This document shows, piece by piece, positions 1,233 to 53,801 of a stretch of 64,000 nucleotides of DNA (positions within the stretch are counted from its first letter, which is position 1; each line of letters begins with the position of its first letter). Below the pieces are notes generated by a model. It was not told the DNA's origin and did not search any database. It saw only the letters and a list, made by a program, of their open reading frames with translations. The DNA comes from Pseudomonas sp. C2B4. GTDB taxonomy: Bacteria > Pseudomonadota > Gammaproteobacteria > Pseudomonadales > Pseudomonadaceae. The translations under genes and the position numbers were made by a program. The stretch is taken from positions 124,001 through 188,000 of the forward strand of contig NZ_JABFMU010000006.1 in NCBI RefSeq assembly GCF_013359695.1, given 5' to 3'.

Positions 1233-2249
1233 ATGAAAATACTCGTAACGGGTGGGACCGGTTATATCGGTTCGCACACTGCACTTGCGCTGCTTGAGTC
1301 GGGCGCTGAAGTGATTGTGCTGGATAACCTGAGTAATAGTTCCGCTGCCGCCTTGCATGCGGTGGAAGCCATCTGCGGTAAAACCGCATTAATGATTCAA
1401 GGGGATGTCTGCGACCGGGCCTTGCTGGACCGGATTTTCCAAGAGCATTCCATTGATGCCGTGCTGCATTTCGCCGGGCTCAAGGCGGTCGGCGAAAGCG
1501 TGCGCAAACCGCTTGAGTATTACCAGGCCAACGTCAGTGGCAGCGTCACGCTCTGCCAGGCGATGGCGGCGGCCGGCGTATTCCGCCTGGTGTTCAGTTC
1601 GTCGGCGACGGTTTACGGCGCCCCTGAGCAGATGCCGATCCGTGAAGATTTCCCCACCGGTTCCCCCACGAACCCTTACGGGCAGTCCAAGTTGATCGTG
1701 GAGAACGTGTTGCAGGATCTGTGTAAGACGGACCCGCGCTGGAGCATCGCGTTGTTGCGCTATTTCAATCCGGTCGGGGCGCACCCCAGTGGGCTCATGG
1801 GTGAGGACCCCCGCGGCATTCCGAACAACCTGGTGCCCTATATCAGCCAGGTTGCCGTAGGTAGCCTGCAAGAACTGTCGGTGTTCGGTGACGATTACCC
1901 CACGGTCGATGGCACCGGTGTGCGCGACTACATTCATGTGGTGGACCTGGCGGACGGACATCTCAAGGCATTGCAGGCGATCTCGGGGCGCACCGGCATC
2001 AACATCTGGAACCTGGGCACGGGTGACGGCTACAGCGTCCTGCAAGTGCTGCAGGCATTCGAACAGGCTTCGGGCCGACCAGTGCCTTATCGCGTGATGC
2101 CGCGCCGCCCGGGCGACGTCGCCGAGTGTTGGGCCGATCCCTCCAAGGCGGCGCAGGAGCTGGGCTGGAAGGCCACCCGGGATTTGCGGCAGATGATGAT
2201 GGACACCTGGCGCTGGCAATCCGGGCATCCCGGGGGGTACCAGGGGTAA
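1233..2249 (+). CDS. galE: UDP-glucose 4-epimerase GalE
   Basis: Interconverts UDP-glucose and UDP-galactose using bound NAD; cytosolic. The 338-residue length is exactly that of typical GalE. The Rossmann motif GGTGYIG is at residues 7-13, SSSATVYG at about 122-129, and the catalytic YxxxK is Y149/K153 in NPYGQSK. The ATG at 1233 places the Rossmann strand at the N terminus; ATG at 1221 or earlier codons would add an unsupported leader. With divergent galU it supplies UDP-sugars to the polysaccharide genes that follow. Confidence 0.96.
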   Translation: MKILVTGGTGYIGSHTALALLESGAEVIVLDNLSNSSAAALHAVEAICGKTALMIQGDVCDRALLDRIFQEHSIDAVLHFAGLKAVGESVRKPLEYYQANVSGSVTLCQAMAAAGVFRLVFSSSATVYGAPEQMPIREDFPTGSPTNPYGQSKLIVENVLQDLCKTDPRWSIALLRYFNPVGAHPSGLMGEDPRGIPNNLVPYISQVAVGSLQELSVFGDDYPTVDGTGVRDYIHVVDLADGHLKALQAISGRTGINIWNLGTGDGYSVLQVLQAFEQASGRPVPYRVMPRRPGDVAECWADPSKAAQELGWKATRDLRQMMMDTWRWQSGHPGGYQG

Positions 2250-14181: not shown

Positions 14182-14355
14182 TGGGGATCTGGAATCGGTG
14201 GGGCGAAAGGCAGGAGTTTATCAGGAATGGGTGAGTAGGGTTGAGGCGAGTCCTGCGGCAGTGGTCCTTTGGATGTCGGGAATGAGCGAGACAGGTCCTG
14301 GAGCGGCTGATAGCATCTAGCCACTAACTACAAGGCTGTTCGAGGAAGGGATCCC

Positions 14356-15015
14356 ATGTTGAAGAAAATTGCGTCATTTGCGTTAGTCACCGCCAGCATT
14401 TTTGCATTCGCGCAAAGCGCAGCCGCCGAAGACAAGCTCTTCAAGAATTATGTCTATCAATCCCCTCTCGCGAACTACACCGAAGCCGCTGGTTACTACG
14501 ACTGTTCCGAAGATGTCGGCGGGACGGCCAGGTGCATCGACGGTGTCGATTTCCTGGAAGAGAAATTCACTGTGGCGTTGGTGTTCTCGGGGGACAAGTT
14601 GATCATGGTATCGCTGATCAGCCCGCTCGATCAGGATTTGTATGGCAAAGCCATTGCCGGGCTTTCCAAGACATTCACGTTGGTATCCATGACGGATGAT
14701 AAGTCGATGCTGGACGTGGTCGAAGTCTCAAGGAAAGTGAGTAGCCGAGACGAGTTGACAGCGAAATTATCCAATTATGAACAGGTAGGCCTGACCTCTG
14801 GGAGTTTGACCTACACGTTTCTGGAAGGTGTGAATGCCAAGGGGCAGTCGAATGCAATTGCTGCGTTGAACGCATCGCCTGAGAATACGAGGTCTGCTGA
14901 GTTGGTGCTTGCCGGGGAAGGGGCTGACGCGGGGCTGTTGATCCGGTTTTCGTTTCCTCGGTTGGAGGCCAACAAGATTATTCAGGCGGCCAAGAAGCCT
15001 GTTGAGGCTTTCTAG
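14356..15015 (+). CDS. Secreted protein of unknown function
   Basis: 219 residues with a clear Sec signal peptide (MLKKIASFALVTASIFAFAQSAAA, likely cleavage after residue 24). The mature part is mixed alpha/beta, has one Cys pair (CSEDVGGTARC, about 50-60), and no motif I recognise. A strong ribosome binding site (GAGGAAGGG) precedes the ATG, and a terminator with T-run follows, so it is a single-gene transcript. Probably periplasmic. Confidence 0.85.
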   Translation: MLKKIASFALVTASIFAFAQSAAAEDKLFKNYVYQSPLANYTEAAGYYDCSEDVGGTARCIDGVDFLEEKFTVALVFSGDKLIMVSLISPLDQDLYGKAIAGLSKTFTLVSMTDDKSMLDVVEVSRKVSSRDELTAKLSNYEQVGLTSGSLTYTFLEGVNAKGQSNAIAALNASPENTRSAELVLAGEGADAGLLIRFSFPRLEANKIIQAAKKPVEAF

Positions 15016-15028
15016 CCTGGGTTTGGAG

Positions 15029-15060
15029 AGGGGACGGATTAAATAAATCTGTCCCCTTTT
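15029..15060 (+). terminator. Intrinsic terminator after the secreted protein gene
   Basis: Stem AGGGGACGGATT / AATCTGTCCCCT with one G-U pair and a short AT loop, followed by TTTT. Confidence 0.85.
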
Positions 15061-15064
15061 CTTC

Positions 15065-15157
15065 TCAGTTGGACAGTTCGAGGATCGCCGCTTCTAGGGC
15101 GAGCTGGTTTTCGTTGAGTTTGTGTAGTAACGGCGGCAACAGATCTGTGTGGGGCAT
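15065..15157 (-). CDS. Small 30-codon ORF, possible truncated Pseudomonas small protein
   Basis: Encodes 30 residues (begins MPHTDLLPPLLHKLNENQ, ends ILELSN) with GGAG about ten bases before the ATG. The LLxxLNENQLALEAA pattern resembles the start of a ~65-residue hypothetical protein I recall as common in Pseudomonas, where a Trp follows the position of this stop; the TGA here could be a changed TGG. The ORF ends against the terminator of the convergent gene. Either a very short protein or a broken copy. Confidence 0.4.
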   Translation of the reverse strand: MPHTDLLPPLLHKLNENQLALEAAILELSN

Positions 15158-15237
15158 GGCGCATTCTCCGTGGCGCCTTCAGCGTAGCAGGCGGTCACGG
15201 AGAGAGTCTGATCATCGGGTCACACCGGAGCCTGGCC

Positions 15238-16179
15238 TTATTCCAGGACTGTCTCAAACACTAACAGGGTATTGATTGCTCCCGGTGTTTGAGCTTCATC
15301 GGGATTACGGTGAAGTTCTGCAGTAAAACTCTGTCTAAAACCATCAGCGGTAAAGGCCAAGCCATTGTCCGCTAGTGAATTTTTCTTCGATAGATCGAGG
15401 TATTGACCGTTATTGTTTTTCAATCGGACCTGAATACCCTTTGCGCAGTTTGTGCAAGTGCCATTTCTGAGTGCTGTCCCATCGCTCCTGATCCGCGGGG
15501 AGCGGAACGTTAGCGCGGTAGAGAACACGTAATCCACTACATTATTCGCTCCTCCACAATTACCAAATTCGATAGAAAACGGCTGACTGCCCCCCACGTT
15601 GGAAATTTCGCCAAAATCAACTTTGATATCGGTGCTGACTAATGAACATGAGTTGACCGGAGTTTCTCCGCCGTCAAATGGTAGGATTTCGTGCCTGATT
15701 AAAGTTTCAGGGCGGCGATAGTTGTCGCGTGAATAGAGATGATTGTATGTAGGTTTCAATGTGTGGGGGCCCACGGGGACCGAACCGACCTTGACAAAAC
15801 GGTATGGGCCAGCCTGCGAATTACCGACAGCCCCAGTCCCGTTAACGAGAAAGAATGCGTGCCCAGCAAGGGTGGGATTTCTGCACGTATCTCCCCATAA
15901 TTCGATACCTGGTACAGTTGTCAAACATCTACCTCCGGCGGAACCAGGTGTCTGCTCTCCAGCGAATAACACTACTTGTGCTCCGCGTGTGCAAGTATGG
16001 GTAGCCTTGAAGTAGTACTCCCCTACGGTAGACCCGATAGGGGCTGTGGCTAAATCGGCAAAAAGCGTTATCTCCCCTCTAACGTTTTCGAAGTTACAAC
16101 CACCGTTTGAAAATGACAGTGCGCTTGCTGTTTGACTATACCCGCAGGCAAAAATCAGTAGTATAAAATAGCGATACAT
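15238..16179 (-). CDS. Two-domain fimbrial adhesin-like protein, copy 1
   Basis: 313 residues with a signal peptide (to about residue 20, ASA). The N-terminal ~150 residues are a variable, Cys-containing domain in the place of a FimH-like receptor-binding domain; the C-terminal ~145 (from CSLVSTDIKVDFGEI) look like a chaperone-usher pilin, with the paired Cys and terminal beta strand NTLLVFETVLE. GGGG lies about eight bases before the ATG. It is a paralogue of the gene at 16977: C-terminal domains and 3' flanks are nearly the same and the N-terminal domains diverge. No chaperone or usher gene is adjacent. Confidence 0.8.
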   Translation of the reverse strand: MYRYFILLIFACGYSQTASALSFSNGGCNFENVRGEITLFADLATAPIGSTVGEYYFKATHTCTRGAQVVLFAGEQTPGSAGGRCLTTVPGIELWGDTCRNPTLAGHAFFLVNGTGAVGNSQAGPYRFVKVGSVPVGPHTLKPTYNHLYSRDNYRRPETLIRHEILPFDGGETPVNSCSLVSTDIKVDFGEISNVGGSQPFSIEFGNCGGANNVVDYVFSTALTFRSPRIRSDGTALRNGTCTNCAKGIQVRLKNNNGQYLDLSKKNSLADNGLAFTADGFRQSFTAELHRNPDEAQTPGAINTLLVFETVLE

Positions 16180-16976
16180 CGTGACCCCGACTAATGTGCT
16201 TAAGTTATTCTGTTCGGCTGTATTTTTAAAAAGCTAGCCGGTGAATCCTGGGGTTGGTTGTGGAGCGCAGCCGCGTGGGTGGCGCTGAAGATATTTAAAC
16301 TTATGATGTTTTAGTATTTACGGGAAGCGGAAATATCTGCGCATTGCGTAGGATGTGGACTACATTGAGTAGAGCAACAGCTGTTATATGCATGATCGCG
16401 TCGTTGGCGTTTGTAATCGTGTAACGGTGGGGCAATCTAATAAAGCGATATAGGACTGACCCTACAAAAAATAGGAATTGTCGACTTTATTTGGAACAGT
16501 TCATCAGGAAACCTTGTGTTTGATTTTTTCAGAAAGTTTGCAGATTCGTGCAAGCAGCAGAGCGTGAAGGATAAACACGGAGAATTTTTTTGCTTTCACG
16601 GATAGCTTCGGAACGGTCCTACAGGCTCAGTGTTTAAAACTCTTTAACGTACAGATCTGGCCGTAATGGAGAGGAAGTGGAGAGGGGAGGCAGGTCGGGT
16701 CGAGCGTCTCGGCGGATCAAGGCGTTGTCGGTAATCTCTAGAAAGTCTCGATCGTGTCTTGCTTAAACTTTGATACACGCGGTGTAGCAAATGGCCGTGC
16801 CGGGCCAAGCGGGCCGGGAGGCGGATGGTTAAATGCACCCCATCCATCATGGGTGCAACGGAAACCTCCGAGTTGGAGCAGCAGGTGAGATTGAGGCGGA
16901 GGATAACAAGGCATACCGAGTGGTATCTGGATGAAATGGAGAAGCTCCGATCGAGAGATAAAGGTCAGGCCTGGCC
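16180..16976. other. Long intergenic region between the two adhesin-like genes
   Basis: Nearly 800 AT-richer bases with no supported gene. It holds the promoter of copy 1 and one copy of GTCCTACAG (16616-16624). Near 16830-16855 (minus strand) a seven-residue reading SVAPMMD matches the DusA N terminus, probably by chance. The last ~20 bases match the sequence after copy 1, marking the duplicated unit. Confidence 0.4.
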
Positions 16977-17954
16977 TTAATCCAGGACGGTCTCAAACAC
17001 TAGTTGGGTATTGATCGTCCCCGGTGTTTGCGCCTCATCGGGATTACGTTCAAGTTCTGCGGTAAAGTTCTGTCTAAAGCCATCGTCGGTAAAGCTCGTG
17101 CCGTTGCCCGACAATGAATTCAATTTCGACAGATCGATGTATCGACCATTCGCGTTTTTCAATCGGATCTGAATACCTTTCGCACAGTTGGTGCAGGTAC
17201 CATTTCTCAGCGCTGTCCCATCGCTCCTGATCCGCTCGGAACTGAACTTTAACGCTGTAGCAAACACGTAATCCACTGCATTATTTATGTCGCTGCAATT
17301 ACCGAACTCCAATGAAAATGGTTGCGTGCCCCCCACGTCGGAAACTTCGCCAAAATCCACATTCACGTTGGTGCTGACCAGTGAGCAGGCATCACTACCA
17401 GCACTGCCTCCATCACTAGGTAGGTTAACTCCAAGTCGTTTGACCACATCATTGCGTACTACGGGTACTACAGCTACAAGACTAGTGTCGATTGGAGCCA
17501 GATTGTAGTTTCCTGGGGGGACGGGGCCAACTTTTATAATGGCCGCGGGATCTGATTTTAAATATTGGGGGAACGTACCCAGAGAGTCAGCTACAATCAG
17601 TGTGGGGCCGTAAGCGGCATTGCCCTCCAAGCAAGCTCCATTAAACCTTAGTTCAATATTGGGTATCGTGGTTCTGCAAGGTAAAGCGTGGCCGGTGGTG
17701 TATGGCAACTGCTTCTCCAAAGCAATACGTACATATCTATAGGCGTCACCGGGTTGTCGTACACAGTGAGTGACTGTGCCAGATGCTTCAAAGGTTCCCA
17801 CCTGGGAGCCTATAGGGGCAGTTGCCAAATCAGCAGTGAAGGCGGTGGTGCCTTGAACGTTTTGAAAATTGCAGCCGTAATGCTCAAAGGACAGCGCTGT
17901 GGCTGTTTGGCTGTATAGGCATGCAATGACTAATAGGAGTAAATAGCGGTGCAT
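16977..17954 (-). CDS. Two-domain fimbrial adhesin-like protein, copy 2
   Basis: 325 residues, paralogue of the gene at 15238. Signal peptide to about residue 20 (ATA), N-terminal receptor-like domain with Cys residues, then a pilin-like C-terminal domain from CSLVSTNVNVDFGEV to NTQLVFETVLD. The two proteins are almost identical in the segments around SDGTALRNGTCTNCAKGIQ and differ strongly between about residues 60 and 180, as expected for adhesins with different ligands. ATG at 17954 has GGAGG five bases upstream. Export by a chaperone-usher system encoded elsewhere is an inference. Confidence 0.8.
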   Translation of the reverse strand: MHRYLLLLVIACLYSQTATALSFEHYGCNFQNVQGTTAFTADLATAPIGSQVGTFEASGTVTHCVRQPGDAYRYVRIALEKQLPYTTGHALPCRTTIPNIELRFNGACLEGNAAYGPTLIVADSLGTFPQYLKSDPAAIIKVGPVPPGNYNLAPIDTSLVAVVPVVRNDVVKRLGVNLPSDGGSAGSDACSLVSTNVNVDFGEVSDVGGTQPFSLEFGNCSDINNAVDYVFATALKFSSERIRSDGTALRNGTCTNCAKGIQIRLKNANGRYIDLSKLNSLSGNGTSFTDDGFRQNFTAELERNPDEAQTPGTINTQLVFETVLD

Positions 17955-18530
17955 ATTGGCCTCCATTTAATAGTTTGAGCAGGGAGTTTTTGCTGAACGT
18001 CATCGATAAAAATTGAGATGATGGGTCGCGACTCAACGGTTAGGAGACTAATTAGTGATTAGATTTCTTCGTGCGGATGAGGACGCCTATCGTCTGTGAT
18101 TTGCAGGCTAACGGTTAAGGCTTTGCAGGGGTATAGGATGGGTCTGATAGTGCGGGGTGAAGCGTCCTACAGGGTGGTCGAATCAGCAGTTTTTATAAAG
18201 TGTTTTAACTTCGTCTTTTTGAAGGTTCTGGATTTCAGGTATAGCAATTTAGCAGAAAAATGCACTGAGCTGGAGCTGTGTTTTCTAGTTCCTACGTTAG
18301 ACCAAACCGAAATCAAGTTTGACGTTGGTGGTGCGAGGTTTGTAGCCCGTCGGCGCATTATTAATTTAGATTCAATGCTGGCAGCTGCGCTAACTGGTAG
18401 TAGTCCAGTTCCTACGAAATGATAAGATAGGTCCTACAGCTAACTCGGTTTTTTCCTTCGTGCGTCAAGCAGCTATTTTTTTAGATTGAATCTCGCATGT
18501 TTTGTTACCTGAAAATACTGGAGCTTCATT
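17955..18530. other. Divergent region between adhesin copy 2 and the pilin gene
   Basis: About 575 bases. The only long reading frame (18096-18422, +) has no ribosome binding site and no protein-like composition. The region contains AGTTCCTACG twice (18287-18296 and 18407-18416), GTCCTACAG twice (18164-18172 and 18431-18439) and AACGGTTA twice near 18034 and 18110. These could be regulator sites. Confidence 0.4.
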
Positions 18531-19112
18531 GTGAAAAAAATTTCCATACTGGCATTGAGTCTATTGGCTGCTGCAGCAATGGCGACGAATGCCAATGCTT
18601 CGAATGGCACACTGCAATTCAACGGTAATTTAACCGATGCCACTTGCTCCATCACCGCTGTAGGCGGGGCCGCATCACAGAGTGGTTCGGATGTGATCAT
18701 CGACTTGGGTACTGTTTCGTTTGGGGACTTGCGCACGGCCACTCCAGGCGTTGGAACCGTGACTGGTTTTAATGACTTTTCCTTTCGACTCGATTGCACG
18801 GGCGCTCAACAGTTTCAGAGTTTGGTCCTGAATTTTGATCCGCGCTCCGGGACCGGTGTGGACCGTAACGACAGCCGCCTGCTCGCCTTGGCACCAGGTG
18901 GTGCCAGCGGAGCAGCAGTGGCCGTCACCGACGCTCAAGGCCAAATTATTAATTTGTCCAGCACGCAAAGACTGATAGCGAACCTCACGGGGACCGGCGG
19001 CCCAGGTCGATTTGCTTTTTTTGATATGGGTGCGGCTTACCTCAAGACCTCCGGTCCCGAGATGGTGGGTGTGGCCAATGCCAGCCTGCCGTTTGTGATT
19101 ACTTATCAGTAA
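18531..19112 (+). CDS. FimA-like major fimbrial subunit
   Basis: 193-residue type 1 pilin-like protein: signal peptide to about residue 23 (ANA), donor strand GTLQFNGNLTDATCSI with the first conserved Cys at about 38, second Cys near 87 (RLDCTGAQ), and the typical C-terminal strand ANASLPFVITYQ. Such subunits polymerise by donor-strand exchange after delivery by a periplasmic chaperone. GTG start at 18531 with GGAG eight bases before. Divergent from the adhesin-like genes and closed by a strong terminator; no chaperone or usher follows. Confidence 0.88.
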   Translation: MKKISILALSLLAAAAMATNANASNGTLQFNGNLTDATCSITAVGGAASQSGSDVIIDLGTVSFGDLRTATPGVGTVTGFNDFSFRLDCTGAQQFQSLVLNFDPRSGTGVDRNDSRLLALAPGGASGAAVAVTDAQGQIINLSSTQRLIANLTGTGGPGRFAFFDMGAAYLKTSGPEMVGVANASLPFVITYQ

Positions 19113-19121
19113 ATGTGTACT

Positions 19122-19148
19122 GAGCCTTCTTCTTGAAGGCTCTTTTTT
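19122..19148 (+). terminator. Intrinsic terminator of the pilin gene
   Basis: Stem GAGCCTTC / GAAGGCTC, 5-base loop, followed by TTTTTT. Confidence 0.9.
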
Positions 19149-19501
19149 ATTGGCTTGGCGCCAACAGTAGGATGTTGAGTAAGTAACGGTGGTACGAAAG
19201 TGGTACGGAGAATTCAAAGTACCGACCAGGCCCTTTATTGACGGTGGTGCGCAGAATAGCTTGTCCCATCCATCATCGGGCGGAGCTAACGACCTCGTGT
19301 TGATGAAATCACCCAGATGTAGGACATTTCCCGCCATCTCTGTCGGATTCGCCCATCTTGTGCTCCCTTACCCACCCCGATAGCCTTCTCCTAGTCGCTG
19401 CAAAATCAGCGACAAGGGTGTGGAAGCCCTTCAAAAGATCTAGGCGCACAGGCGCCACCCGAATTTAAGCAGGCGCTTTTTTCATGTCTGCTGTTAAATT
19501 A
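19149..19501. other. Region before the C4-like RNA, with small hairpins
   Basis: No supported gene. From 19394 two hairpins follow each other (GTCGCTG/CAGCGAC at 19394-19413 and AAGGG/CCCTT at 19414-19431), then GCGCC/GGCGC ending in TTTTTT near 19480, which looks like a weak terminator just ahead of the structured RNA. This arrangement is probably part of the leader of the next gene. Confidence 0.4.
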
Positions 19502-19579
19502 TGGCGGCTGTGCGCGGGGCACTTTCGAGTGCGCCGGGTTCCTAGATCCCCGGTCTTCCACACCTGCGCACAGCTGCCA
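19502..19579 (+). ncRNA. C4-like structured RNA (three-way junction)
   Basis: A 14-bp closing stem (19502-19515 with 19566-19579, one G-U pair) encloses two hairpins: GCACT-TTCG-AGTGC at 19519-19532 and CCGGG/CCCGG at 19534-19553 with a 10-base loop. Outline and several bases fit my memory of the C4 antisense RNA family of phages P1/P7, which also occurs in Pseudomonas. The second hairpin carries GTTCCTAGA (19538-19546), exactly complementary to TCTAGGAAC (19621-19629) over the ribosome binding site of the next gene. That is the C4 mode of action, acting on the downstream gene. Confidence 0.65.
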
Positions 19580-19605
19580 CCTATCATGTGGAAGTGATGC
19601 TGGCA

Positions 19606-19629
19606 GTTCCTTTAGTTAATTCTAGGAAC
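19606..19629 (+). promoter_or_regulatory. Sequestered ribosome binding site of the DUF3077-like gene
   Basis: GTTCCT (19606-19611) can pair with AGGAAC (19624-19629), which is the Shine-Dalgarno region of the gene starting at 19637. The same AGGAAC is the target of the C4-like loop, so the two pairings compete. Confidence 0.5.
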
Positions 19630-19636
19630 GCAAACG

Positions 19637-19978
19637 ATGAAAAAAATCACGCCCGATCCACCCGAAGCGCCAAATGCTTCCGACCTCGACGAGCTGTCCA
19701 AAGCCAGTCATCTCGCTGTCAGTAAACGTCTACGCAATCCAAATCACGCCGATCCCATCTGTCATGTGTTTACCATCGTGCCCAACGTTGATACTGAAAC
19801 CTTGCTTTGTCTCGCCTGTGAAACGCTCGCGTCGCTGAATGTCCTCACCACCGATCTGGCCTGTAAGCTCGAAGGCTCACCACGCAGTCTGGCGTTGTCG
19901 ATTCAGCAACTGGCGGTTGTCGGGGAGCTGCTGGTGAATCGGGCATTGGATAATGTCGATCCGCCCGTGGGTGCATGA
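19637..19978 (+). CDS. DUF3077/DUF6124-family small protein
   Basis: 113 residues. The C-terminal half (TLLCLACETLASLNVLTTDLACKLEGSPRSLALSIQQLAVVGELLVNRAL) matches a helical small-protein family frequent in Pseudomonas, with no known function. The N-terminal third is Pro/charged and probably disordered. The mRNA leader contains the C4-like RNA and a sequestered ribosome binding site, so expression looks strongly controlled after transcription. Ends with a terminator at 19998. Confidence 0.82.
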   Translation: MKKITPDPPEAPNASDLDELSKASHLAVSKRLRNPNHADPICHVFTIVPNVDTETLLCLACETLASLNVLTTDLACKLEGSPRSLALSIQQLAVVGELLVNRALDNVDPPVGA

Positions 19979-49512: not shown

Positions 49513-49588
<76 letters not shown>

Positions 49589-49667
49589 ATTTACACTTCA
49601 AGGCCTGGCCACACCGGCCTTGAAGCGATCAACACTCAGCGTTGATCAGTTGTATAGAAGGGTTTGC

Positions 49668-49743
49668 GTCCCCTTCGTCTAGTGGCCTAGGACACCGCCC
49701 TTTCACGGCGGTAACAGGGGTTCGAGTCCCCTAGGGGACGCCA
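49668..49743 (+). tRNA. tRNA-Glu (TTC), copy 1
   Basis: 76 nt: GTCCCCT acceptor, D-arm CGTCTAGTGGCCTAGGACA, anticodon loop with TTC, T-arm GGTTCGAGTCC, encoded CCA. Confidence 0.97.
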
Positions 49744-49796
49744 GTTTTACAGAAGTGATGTTGCAAGATGTCGCTCCGCCGAGAGGCGAAAAATCC

Positions 49797-49872
49797 GGGG
49801 CTATAGCTCAGCTGGGAGAGCGCCTGCATGGCATGCAGGAGGTCAGCGGTTCGATCCCGCTTAGCTCCACCA
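49797..49872 (+). tRNA. tRNA-Ala (GGC), copy 2
   Basis: 76 nt, same anticodon GGC as copy 1 but with paired changes in the anticodon stem (CCTGC/GCAGG instead of CTTGC/GCAAG) and T-stem, so the fold is kept. Confidence 0.97.
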
Positions 49873-49951
49873 ATTTACAGTTCAAGGTCTGGCCACACTG
49901 GCCTTGAATCGATCAGCTCTCAGCACTGATCAGTTGTATAGAAGGGTTTGT

Positions 49952-50027
49952 GTCCCCTTCGTCTAGTGGCCTAGGACACCGCCCTTTCACGGCGGTAACA
50001 GGGGTTCGAGTCCCCTAGGGGACGCCA
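49952..50027 (+). tRNA. tRNA-Glu (TTC), copy 2
   Basis: 76 nt, sequence identical to the first tRNA-Glu as far as I can see. Confidence 0.97.
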
Positions 50028-53281: not shown

Positions 53282-53289
53282 AAGGGTTA

Positions 53290-53354
53290 CGCGATGCCGA
53301 ATTCGGGTCGCGGAGACAAAAAACCTTGCTGATTGTTTTCAGGAGATTTGAACC
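53290..53354 (+). promoter_or_regulatory. ROSE-type RNA thermometer of ibpA
   Basis: The 5' leader of about 65-75 nt has an upstream hairpin (GCGA ... TCGC near 53291-53311) and a 3' hairpin in which CTTGCTG pairs with CAGGAG (ribosome binding site 53341-53345) leaving a bulged G, the hallmark of ROSE elements that melt on warming. Small heat shock genes of pseudomonads are known to carry such elements. Confidence 0.8.
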
Positions 53355-53801
53355 ATGACTACTGCATTTTCCCTGGCGCCTCTGTTCCGTTCCTCGGTAG
53401 GTTTCGATCGTTTCAACGATCTGTTCGAAACTGCCCTGCGCAATGAGCCTGGCAGCACTTACCCTCCCTACAACGTCGAAAAACATGGCGACGATCAATA
53501 CCGCATCGTTGTGGCGGCAGCCGGTTTCCAGGAAGAAGACCTGGAGCTGCAAGTGGAGAAGGGTGTGCTGACCATCAGTGGCGGCAAACGTGATGCCAGT
53601 GAAGGCGTGACCTTCCTGCATCAAGGCATCGCCCAGCGGGCCTTCAAACTGTCCTTCCGTCTGGCGGACCATATCGAAATCAAGGCCGCCGACCTGCGCA
53701 ACGGTCTGTTGAGCATCGACCTGCTGCGAGTCATCCCGGAAGAGGCGAAAGCCAAGCGCATCCCGATCAACGGAGCGCAAAAACCGGCTCTGCAACACTA
53801 A
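53355..53801 (+). CDS. ibpA: Small heat shock protein IbpA
   Basis: 148-residue Hsp20 holdase. Short N-terminal arm (FSLAPLFRSSVGFDRFNDLFE), alpha-crystallin domain from about 40 to 125 (NVEKHGDDQYRIVVAAAGFQEEDLELQVEKGVLTISG), C-terminal IPIN motif (IxI/V type) near 137. Controlled by a sigma-32 promoter and a ROSE thermometer. Confidence 0.95.
   Translation: MTTAFSLAPLFRSSVGFDRFNDLFETALRNEPGSTYPPYNVEKHGDDQYRIVVAAAGFQEEDLELQVEKGVLTISGGKRDASEGVTFLHQGIAQRAFKLSFRLADHIEIKAADLRNGLLSIDLLRVIPEEAKAKRIPINGAQKPALQH

Follow-up and report, generated by a model that had tools for sequence, protein, structure and literature searches.

Introduction

Among the described relatives of the RNA considered here is the C4 antisense RNA of phages P1 and P7. 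RNase P processes this RNA, whose segment b' partly occludes a ribosome-binding site and whose segment a' confers specificity, as summarised in PMC5320573. In P1, icd is apparently required for the expression of ant, according to the lines of PMC8201110 on this operon. The passages of PMC4825925 on related phage elements state that orf45 of IsrK is translationally coupled to anrP, that the short IsrK switches the read-through mRNA on in Gifsy-1, and that the CI RNA of P4 pairs with sites on either side of itself. The relevant part of Weinberg 2010 (PMC2864571) places c4 in Proteobacteria and phages and c4-a1b1 in gamma-Proteobacteria and phages; the same work predicted C4 in Pseudomonadales too, according to the summary in PMC5320573. 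The c4-a1b1 family (RF03163) is, in Rfam's words, 'a1, b1 targets of C4 antisense RNA'. In Acinetobacter baumannii, the section of PMC5320573 on C4-like sRNAs (Group 1) reports 21 of them in one strain, with a read coverage consistent with RNase P processing. The RNA class, its occurrence in Pseudomonadales and chromosomal multicopy C4 are already known. In the open-licence literature, we found no paper tying C4 to DUF6124 or DUF3077 genes, or describing an expansion in Pseudomonas or a locus-specific matching of C4 with its targets.

In the present study, we analysed a 64-kb stretch of Pseudomonas DNA (64,000 nucleotides, here called the window) in which an original prediction, made from the letters alone, had placed a C4-like RNA antisense to the next gene. 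We are confident that positions 19358-19978 form one autonomous C4 cassette, one of many paralogous copies, in which C4 would block the translation of a DUF6124 gene.

Results and Discussion

The RNA of the window is a genuine member of the Rfam C4 family of antisense RNAs. The Infernal run that the original prediction had proposed as a check gave a match to the Rfam C4 model (RF01695) at 19497-19584 of the plus strand, with 82.3 bits against a gathering cut-off of 45 and an E-value of 1.3e-14, and the alignment spans the full model (1-87). Among the cmscan matches listed for the 64-kb window, this was the only C4. The 88-nt RNA folds at -51 kcal/mol (z = -6.8), and its three-way junction of P1 with the P2 and P3 hairpins was confirmed by both the covariance model and folding.

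All elements of the locus lie on the plus strand. The P3 loop (19538-19549) carries the antisense segment b' GTTCCTAGA (19538-19546), which is the exact complement, over 9 nt, of the target b2 TCTAGGAAC (19621-19629); 74 bases lie between the two, b2 covers the Shine-Dalgarno sequence, and the gene starts with ATG at 19637. This is the loop match that had been predicted, and it stood in position and in bases. Further elements had been missed. In the linker from P3 to the 3' strand of P1 lies a second antisense segment, a' CTTCCACA (19555-19562), and its exact complement over 8 nt, a2 TGTGGAAG (19587-19594), is found directly 3' of the C4 match. Complement tests further located upstream repeats of both targets, a1 GGTGTGGAAG (19417-19426, complementary to a') within a region that can form a hairpin AAGGG..CCCTT (19414-19431), and b1 GATCTAGG (19437-19444, complementary to b'), so that the order of elements is a1b1-C4-a2b2. 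A promoter-like site and a terminator-like hairpin, described below, had also been overlooked. The RF03163 model stayed below its cut-off in the window, though the a1 and b1 complements are present; it exceeded the cut-off at 8 of the 16 C4 loci of the window genome, two of which (L004 and L014) also match RF01394.

For comparison across units, 213 model matches were reduced to 191 by removing opposite-strand and overlapping ones and to 181 by removing identical ones. These comprise 28 units from outside the genus and 153 genus units, which are a non-random sample (16 from the window genome, 50 from another genome of the genus, G049, and 87 mostly high-scoring matches). RNase P-like signs were seen as a GG at P1 in 153/153 genus units and a CACC at the 3' end in 144/153, both at positions that fall within the covariance model that found these units. 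The swap test compared the longest exact complement of each unit's own elements with that of partners swapped among units. In the 153 genus units, the own and swapped means were 7.71 and 4.87 for loop to downstream, 7.03 and 4.70 for linker to downstream, 6.56 and 4.75 for loop to upstream, and 7.02 and 4.89 for linker to upstream. In the same order, the values for the 28 units outside the genus were 8.04/4.84, 7.36/4.72, 7.54/4.77 and 7.64/5.04. In both sets the observed means were reached by 0 of 2000 permutations. A sample assembled from the protein side, starting with the best 80 of 141 relatives of the DUF6124 protein (79 loci in named Pseudomonas records, 74 of them with a C4 at most 300 nt directly upstream, and 70 unique units after identical ones were dropped), gave 7.20/4.52, 7.51/4.76, 6.20/4.69 and 7.67/5.13.

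Matches of the loop to the downstream stretch reached nine bases in 51/153 genus units when own pairs were compared and in 0.9% of swapped pairs, and the loop of the window found matches of at least 8 bases in the downstream 75 nt of 0/180 other units. The b'/b2 match is beyond chance. In 35 of the 153 genus units, the loop-to-downstream match within 75 nt is shorter than 7 bases; in the window genome, both downstream sites have been lost from L009, and the b2 of L010 is weak. Where a match of at least 7 bases and an ORF were both available, the end of b2 lies 5-10 nt 5' of the chosen start in 89/120 genus units; the start codons were assigned by a script-based score, and among the ORFs a few (e.g. 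L055, L085, L190) are probably wrong or frameshifted.

The prediction had named joint variation of loop and ribosome-binding site among homologues as a test, and the two do covary. In a fixed register, the loop was aligned by its CCT and the target by the AGG ahead of the start, each independently; 82/153 units could be counted, the rest lacking either the CCT at loop positions 4-6 (66 units) or an AGG ahead of a start (5 units). Watson-Crick pairs at positions 1-5 past the CCT were present in 74/82, 69/82, 73/82, 71/79 and 53/75 units (71-90%), against shuffled means of 25.9 to 31.8 units (35-39%), and position 6 was at chance (17/70, shuffled mean 14.0). All four Watson-Crick pair types occur at positions 2-5 and three at position 1, and the result was unchanged when one unit was kept per distinct loop ending. 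The units share kinship, so that the shuffles are not strict probabilities, but with 47 such endings and several pair types per position the pattern is hard to ascribe to descent alone. Relatives of the window gene illustrate it most clearly. In L195-L202 and L209, the loop and the core of b2 are those of the window, and in L203, L204, L207 and L208 the loop differs and both targets fit the differing loop (b2 over 6-8 nt, b1 over 6-10 nt), with a' and its partners a1 and a2 nearly constant.

The original prediction had also pointed to a local GTTCCT (19606-19611) able to pair with the same site. This element is real and able to pair with AGGAAC. The minimum free energy (MFE) fold of the 269-nt leader (z -5.5) has that hairpin together with C4; the a1 hairpin and the terminator-like hairpin are both absent from the fold, in which the bases of the latter pair otherwise. 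The arm could be scored in 127 of the 153 genus units, where it exceeds same-base shuffles (mean 4.34 versus 3.38) and is without locus specificity (own 4.34, swapped 4.35). The swap control thus gave no support to GTTCCT as a locus-specific element, a reading that was dropped; it is a generic anti-SD arm that does not covary.

The suggestion of a whole family of such leaders proved correct. The window genome has 16 matches to C4 and 14 to DUF6124, and 11 of these 14 genes have a C4 at most 500 nt upstream, against an expectation of about 0.0006 per gene. C4 was present in 54 of the 59 genus genomes searched (53 above cut-off) and in 18/274 genomes of a class-level draw, the window's own genome being included in both counts. 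G049 contains 55 C4 matches, 52 of them above cut-off; 40 of the 55 lead into a DUF6124 or DUF3077 gene, and seen from the gene side a C4 lies at most 500 nt upstream of 35/41 DUF6124 and 5/6 DUF3077 matches. C4 was not found upstream of 3/14 DUF6124 matches in the window genome, 6/41 in G049 and 5/79 in the protein-first sample. At four DUF6124 genes (L024:1290-1430, L205, L206 and L213), the promoter-like site and the 5' hairpins described below are kept and no C4 was found, which makes them natural variants lacking the antisense RNA; L024 also matches RF03163. At L028, a DUF6124 match without C4 adjoins a PrrF iron sRNA (1282-1428, minus strand, 147.5 bits). The small genome of G319 (1.5 Mb) has six matches in total, with four C4 units in about 1.4 kb (L106:548-1940).

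The copies within one cell are insulated from each other strongly but incompletely. For G049, 50 of the 55 matches were compared, the five weakest being left out, and the loops differ in 50/50 units. By summed duplex energy, the own target was the best for 42/50 C4s and among the best three for 46/50; from the target side, the own C4 was the best for 34/50 and among the best three for 49/50. In the window genome, the own target was the best for 15/16 C4s, the exception being L009 with its lost downstream sites.

Promoter-like and terminator-like signals accompany the antisense elements. A promoter-like site TTGTGC-N17-TAGCCT is present at 19358-19386, and the pattern TTGN3-N16-18-TAN3T occurs in 132/153 genus units (4.65 in shuffles), nearly always 65-70 nt ahead of the end of a1. 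In many DUF6124 units (L006, L007, L008 and others), a conserved stretch around GCCAGAATCCGCCGGCTTGTGCG overlaps the -35 element about 62-85 bases ahead of the a1 end. Near the predicted transcript start lies a 5' hairpin GTCGCTG..CAGCGAC (19394-19413), and visual inspection of 60 upstream stretches showed 5' hairpins in most of them. Between a1b1 and C4, our own script called a terminator-like hairpin GGCGCCA..AGGCGCT followed by T6 (19451-19482); a strict scan of the cassette, which permitted hairpin loops of 3-8 for terminators, called no promoter and no plus-strand terminator. In the proposed mechanism, the cassette's own promoter would give a transcript running through a1-b1, C4 and the DUF6124 gene, from which RNase P would excise C4. 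Acting as an antisense RNA, C4 would place b' of the P3 loop on b2 over the ribosome-binding site and the a' linker on a2, and translation would be blocked. Since a' and b' are also able to pair with the upstream a1 and b1, an end at the terminator-like hairpin could yield a short a1b1 RNA that would titrate C4 or turn the mRNA on, as the short IsrK does in Gifsy-1. By homology with the phage systems, we infer the processing, the translational silencing and the decoy or activating action of a1b1. The pairing of C4 with the ribosome-binding site very probably silences its own gene, as in phage P1.

A different use of the same pairings would be transcription attenuation in the manner of the P4 CI RNA, in which pairing with a1/b1 and a2/b2 leads to premature termination instead of, or besides, a ribosome block. 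The targets on both sides of C4 recall seqA and seqC, which flank CI in the P4 passage of PMC4825925, and our script found terminator-like hairpins between a1b1 and C4 in 48/153 genus units (1.7 expected in shuffles) and in 24/28 units outside the genus. However, the other 105/153 genus units are without such a hairpin by the same script, and b2 lies on the Shine-Dalgarno sequence with a tight gap to the start codon, which fits a translational block. We consider attenuation as the chief mode rather unlikely; a P4-like termination role may act alongside the translational block that we prefer.

The target gene (19637-19978, plus strand) encodes a DUF6124 protein of 113 aa (PF19619, 94.7 bits, E 3e-27). 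A DUF3077 protein reached 14.3 bits against the DUF6124 model, whose cut-off is 27; the original prediction had called the gene DUF3077-like, and DUF3077 is at most a weakly related family. The nearest named relatives, within the best 80 of 141, are from Pseudomonas sp. Irchel 3A7 and P. fluorescens PS918. AlphaFold2 gave a helical hairpin in the C-terminal half (pLDDT 79.4, pTM 0.53). A Foldseek search of this model against the PDB and viral models returned nothing at E 0.001, and VIA-align gave Z up to 9.7, with hairpins of encapsulated ferritin and rubrerythrin first. We read no function from the latter, because a Z under about 13 may be the mere common arrangement of helical bundles; the helical hairpin matches many unrelated proteins, and a functional reading from the predicted fold was rejected. 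Searching PDB sequences with the family profile gave one row (E 0.6), which is no convincing relative.

The genes downstream of C4 are of several kinds. Among 178 units with a predicted ORF, BLAST clustering put 107 in the DUF6124/DUF3077 group, 16 in a group encoding a 52-57-aa protein, 15 in an 'MNRYMPLTG' family and 11 in a Bro-N-like family, one representative of which has Pfam and PHROG antirepressor matches. Outside the genus, the genes downstream of C4 are also of the AntA, Bro-N-HTH and SymE families. C4 was likewise seen upstream of a protein gene at L113 and L094 (G135), the L113 copy being CsrA-like by a weak match (E 2.6e-4, below cut-off). In 22 genus units the main start is late, and in 16 of these 22 a leader ORF has its stop in a 4-nt overlap with that start. 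These 16 are DUF3077-like by sequence, and their leader starts 6-10 nt past the b2 match in 13/16, a figure to be read with the choice of leader ORF having partly used nearness to b2. As described in the relevant lines of PMC9630843, a DUF3077 pseudogene of P. putida KT2440 (PP_RS01475) had gained one base in an evolved strain tolerant of furfural, an insertion that restored its frame.

The cassette could also be read as a toxin-antitoxin-like module, with DUF6124 harmful when made and C4 as its RNA antitoxin. In favour of this, the copies are numerous and largely locus-specific, and P1 Icd blocks cell division, according to the lines of PMC8201110 on it. Outside the genus, L108 (1501-1832) has a C4 ahead of a toxin gene of the SymE family (PF08845, E 7.4e-13), and the C4 loop finds a 10-nt match on the downstream side; this gene is possibly a toxin under C4 control. 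Nevertheless, the three C4-less DUF6124 matches of the window genome are free of internal stops, and L024 is an open gene with a promoter-like site and an a1-like leader and no C4 found; open genes of this kind argue against strong toxicity. PADLOC had no match for six cargo proteins, by which a defence system was rejected as well, and NCBIfam had none for the DUF6124 protein, to which no toxin family was matched in the Pfam scan either. We regard the toxin-antitoxin reading as improbable, and silencing of a small-protein gene by its own C4 is preferred.

A prophage remnant, that is, a leftover phage immunity region in the chromosome that is functionless at present, would account for an RNA of a phage family and for other units standing ahead of Bro-N or AntA antirepressor-like genes. 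The surroundings speak otherwise, as the four neighbouring ORFs scanned were two fimbrial genes and two without a Pfam match. Neither PHROG nor plasmid records gave a match to the DUF6124 protein and 50,697 phage records gave a single one, on which account phage or plasmid cargo was rejected. Furthermore, the base pairing is kept in most units despite sequence change, which points to selection, and we judge a functionless remnant to be very improbable. That C4 loops, by bearing the anti-SD consensus (TTCCT), would match any Shine-Dalgarno sequence by chance agrees with the CCT at loop positions 4-6 in 87/153 genus loops, which fits the AGG of the Shine-Dalgarno, but has next to no probability in view of the swap and shuffle controls, the covariation beyond CCT and the coordinated changes in relatives.

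The flanks were compared with a mobile element in mind, a reading that we did not adopt. In L196-L202, the left flank of the window (to about 14252) directly precedes the unit, without the stretch of two fimbrial genes, and the segment from about 14252 to 19300 was likely gained here or lost in those relatives. In G049, the left flank joins window position about 20033 with 48 nt between them, a site without the unit. The conserved gene beside the window unit has other C4 units near it (L276, L277 and L278 on the minus strand and L281 on the plus strand), three of these four on the opposite strand; the site may be a hotspot. Elsewhere in the window, a ROSE_3 RNA thermometer (53288-53360, plus strand, 68.4 bits) runs into an AUG and presumably precedes a small heat-shock gene. 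Four tRNA genes stand in a row at 49513-50024 (plus strand) with starts 129-155 bases apart, and two of them, compared as alignments, are very alike.

Conclusion

Taken beyond the single cassette, the family may be a phage immunity switch that Pseudomonas has domesticated, giving up to about 55 small-protein genes across the genome that are self-silenced and largely insulated from one another. Every such gene would have its own promoter, antisense RNA, anti-antisense decoy (a1b1) and key sequence, together making a bank of threshold switches; new specificities would arise by coordinated change at b', b1 and b2, and the cargo would be exchangeable (DUF6124, DUF3077, the 52-57-aa proteins, Bro-N-like proteins and, elsewhere, SymE). 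We offer this wider reading tentatively, at somewhat less than an even chance. C4 is usually cast as a phage immunity RNA; in Pseudomonas, it is a common chromosomal unit of probable control whose target is adjacent and can be read from the sequence. This suggests a testable function for many uncharacterised small genes (DUF6124, DUF3077), offers dozens of natural antisense/target pairs in one cell for the study of RNA specificity, and makes the stretch just downstream the likely place for the targets of other chromosomal C4s, e.g. in Acinetobacter.

The cassette shares with C4 of P1/P7 (c4-icd-ant) the three-way junction, the segments a' and b', the position of b' over the ribosome-binding site and the targets beside C4, and the leader ORF of the DUF3077-like units, overlapping the main gene, would allow coupling as in P1. 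Unlike the phage RNA, C4 of Pseudomonas is chromosomal, with up to 55 matches per genome and loops that differ between copies. Its cargo is mostly DUF6124/DUF3077 and other small proteins, whereas the target in P1/P7 is the antirepressor Ant; by the antirepressor that marks a P1-type immI operon, the window target, a DUF6124 protein lacking any PHROG match, falls outside that type. In having an a1b1 segment upstream of C4, the locus resembles c4-a1b1 (RF03163) and IsrK (RF01394), the latter featuring, in the IsrK account, a short RNA produced by termination alongside a read-through mRNA whose leader ORF is coupled; the window copy differs in lying under both cut-offs. Like the CI RNA of P4, as its seqA/seqC arrangement is outlined, C4 has complementary sites both upstream and downstream, but P4 acts by transcription termination and b2 of the window covers the ribosome-binding site. 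A chromosomal counterpart is Group 1 of A. baumannii, likewise multicopy C4-like RNAs; the section of PMC5320573 on them names no bacterial targets, whereas each C4 of Pseudomonas has its targets next to it in cis.
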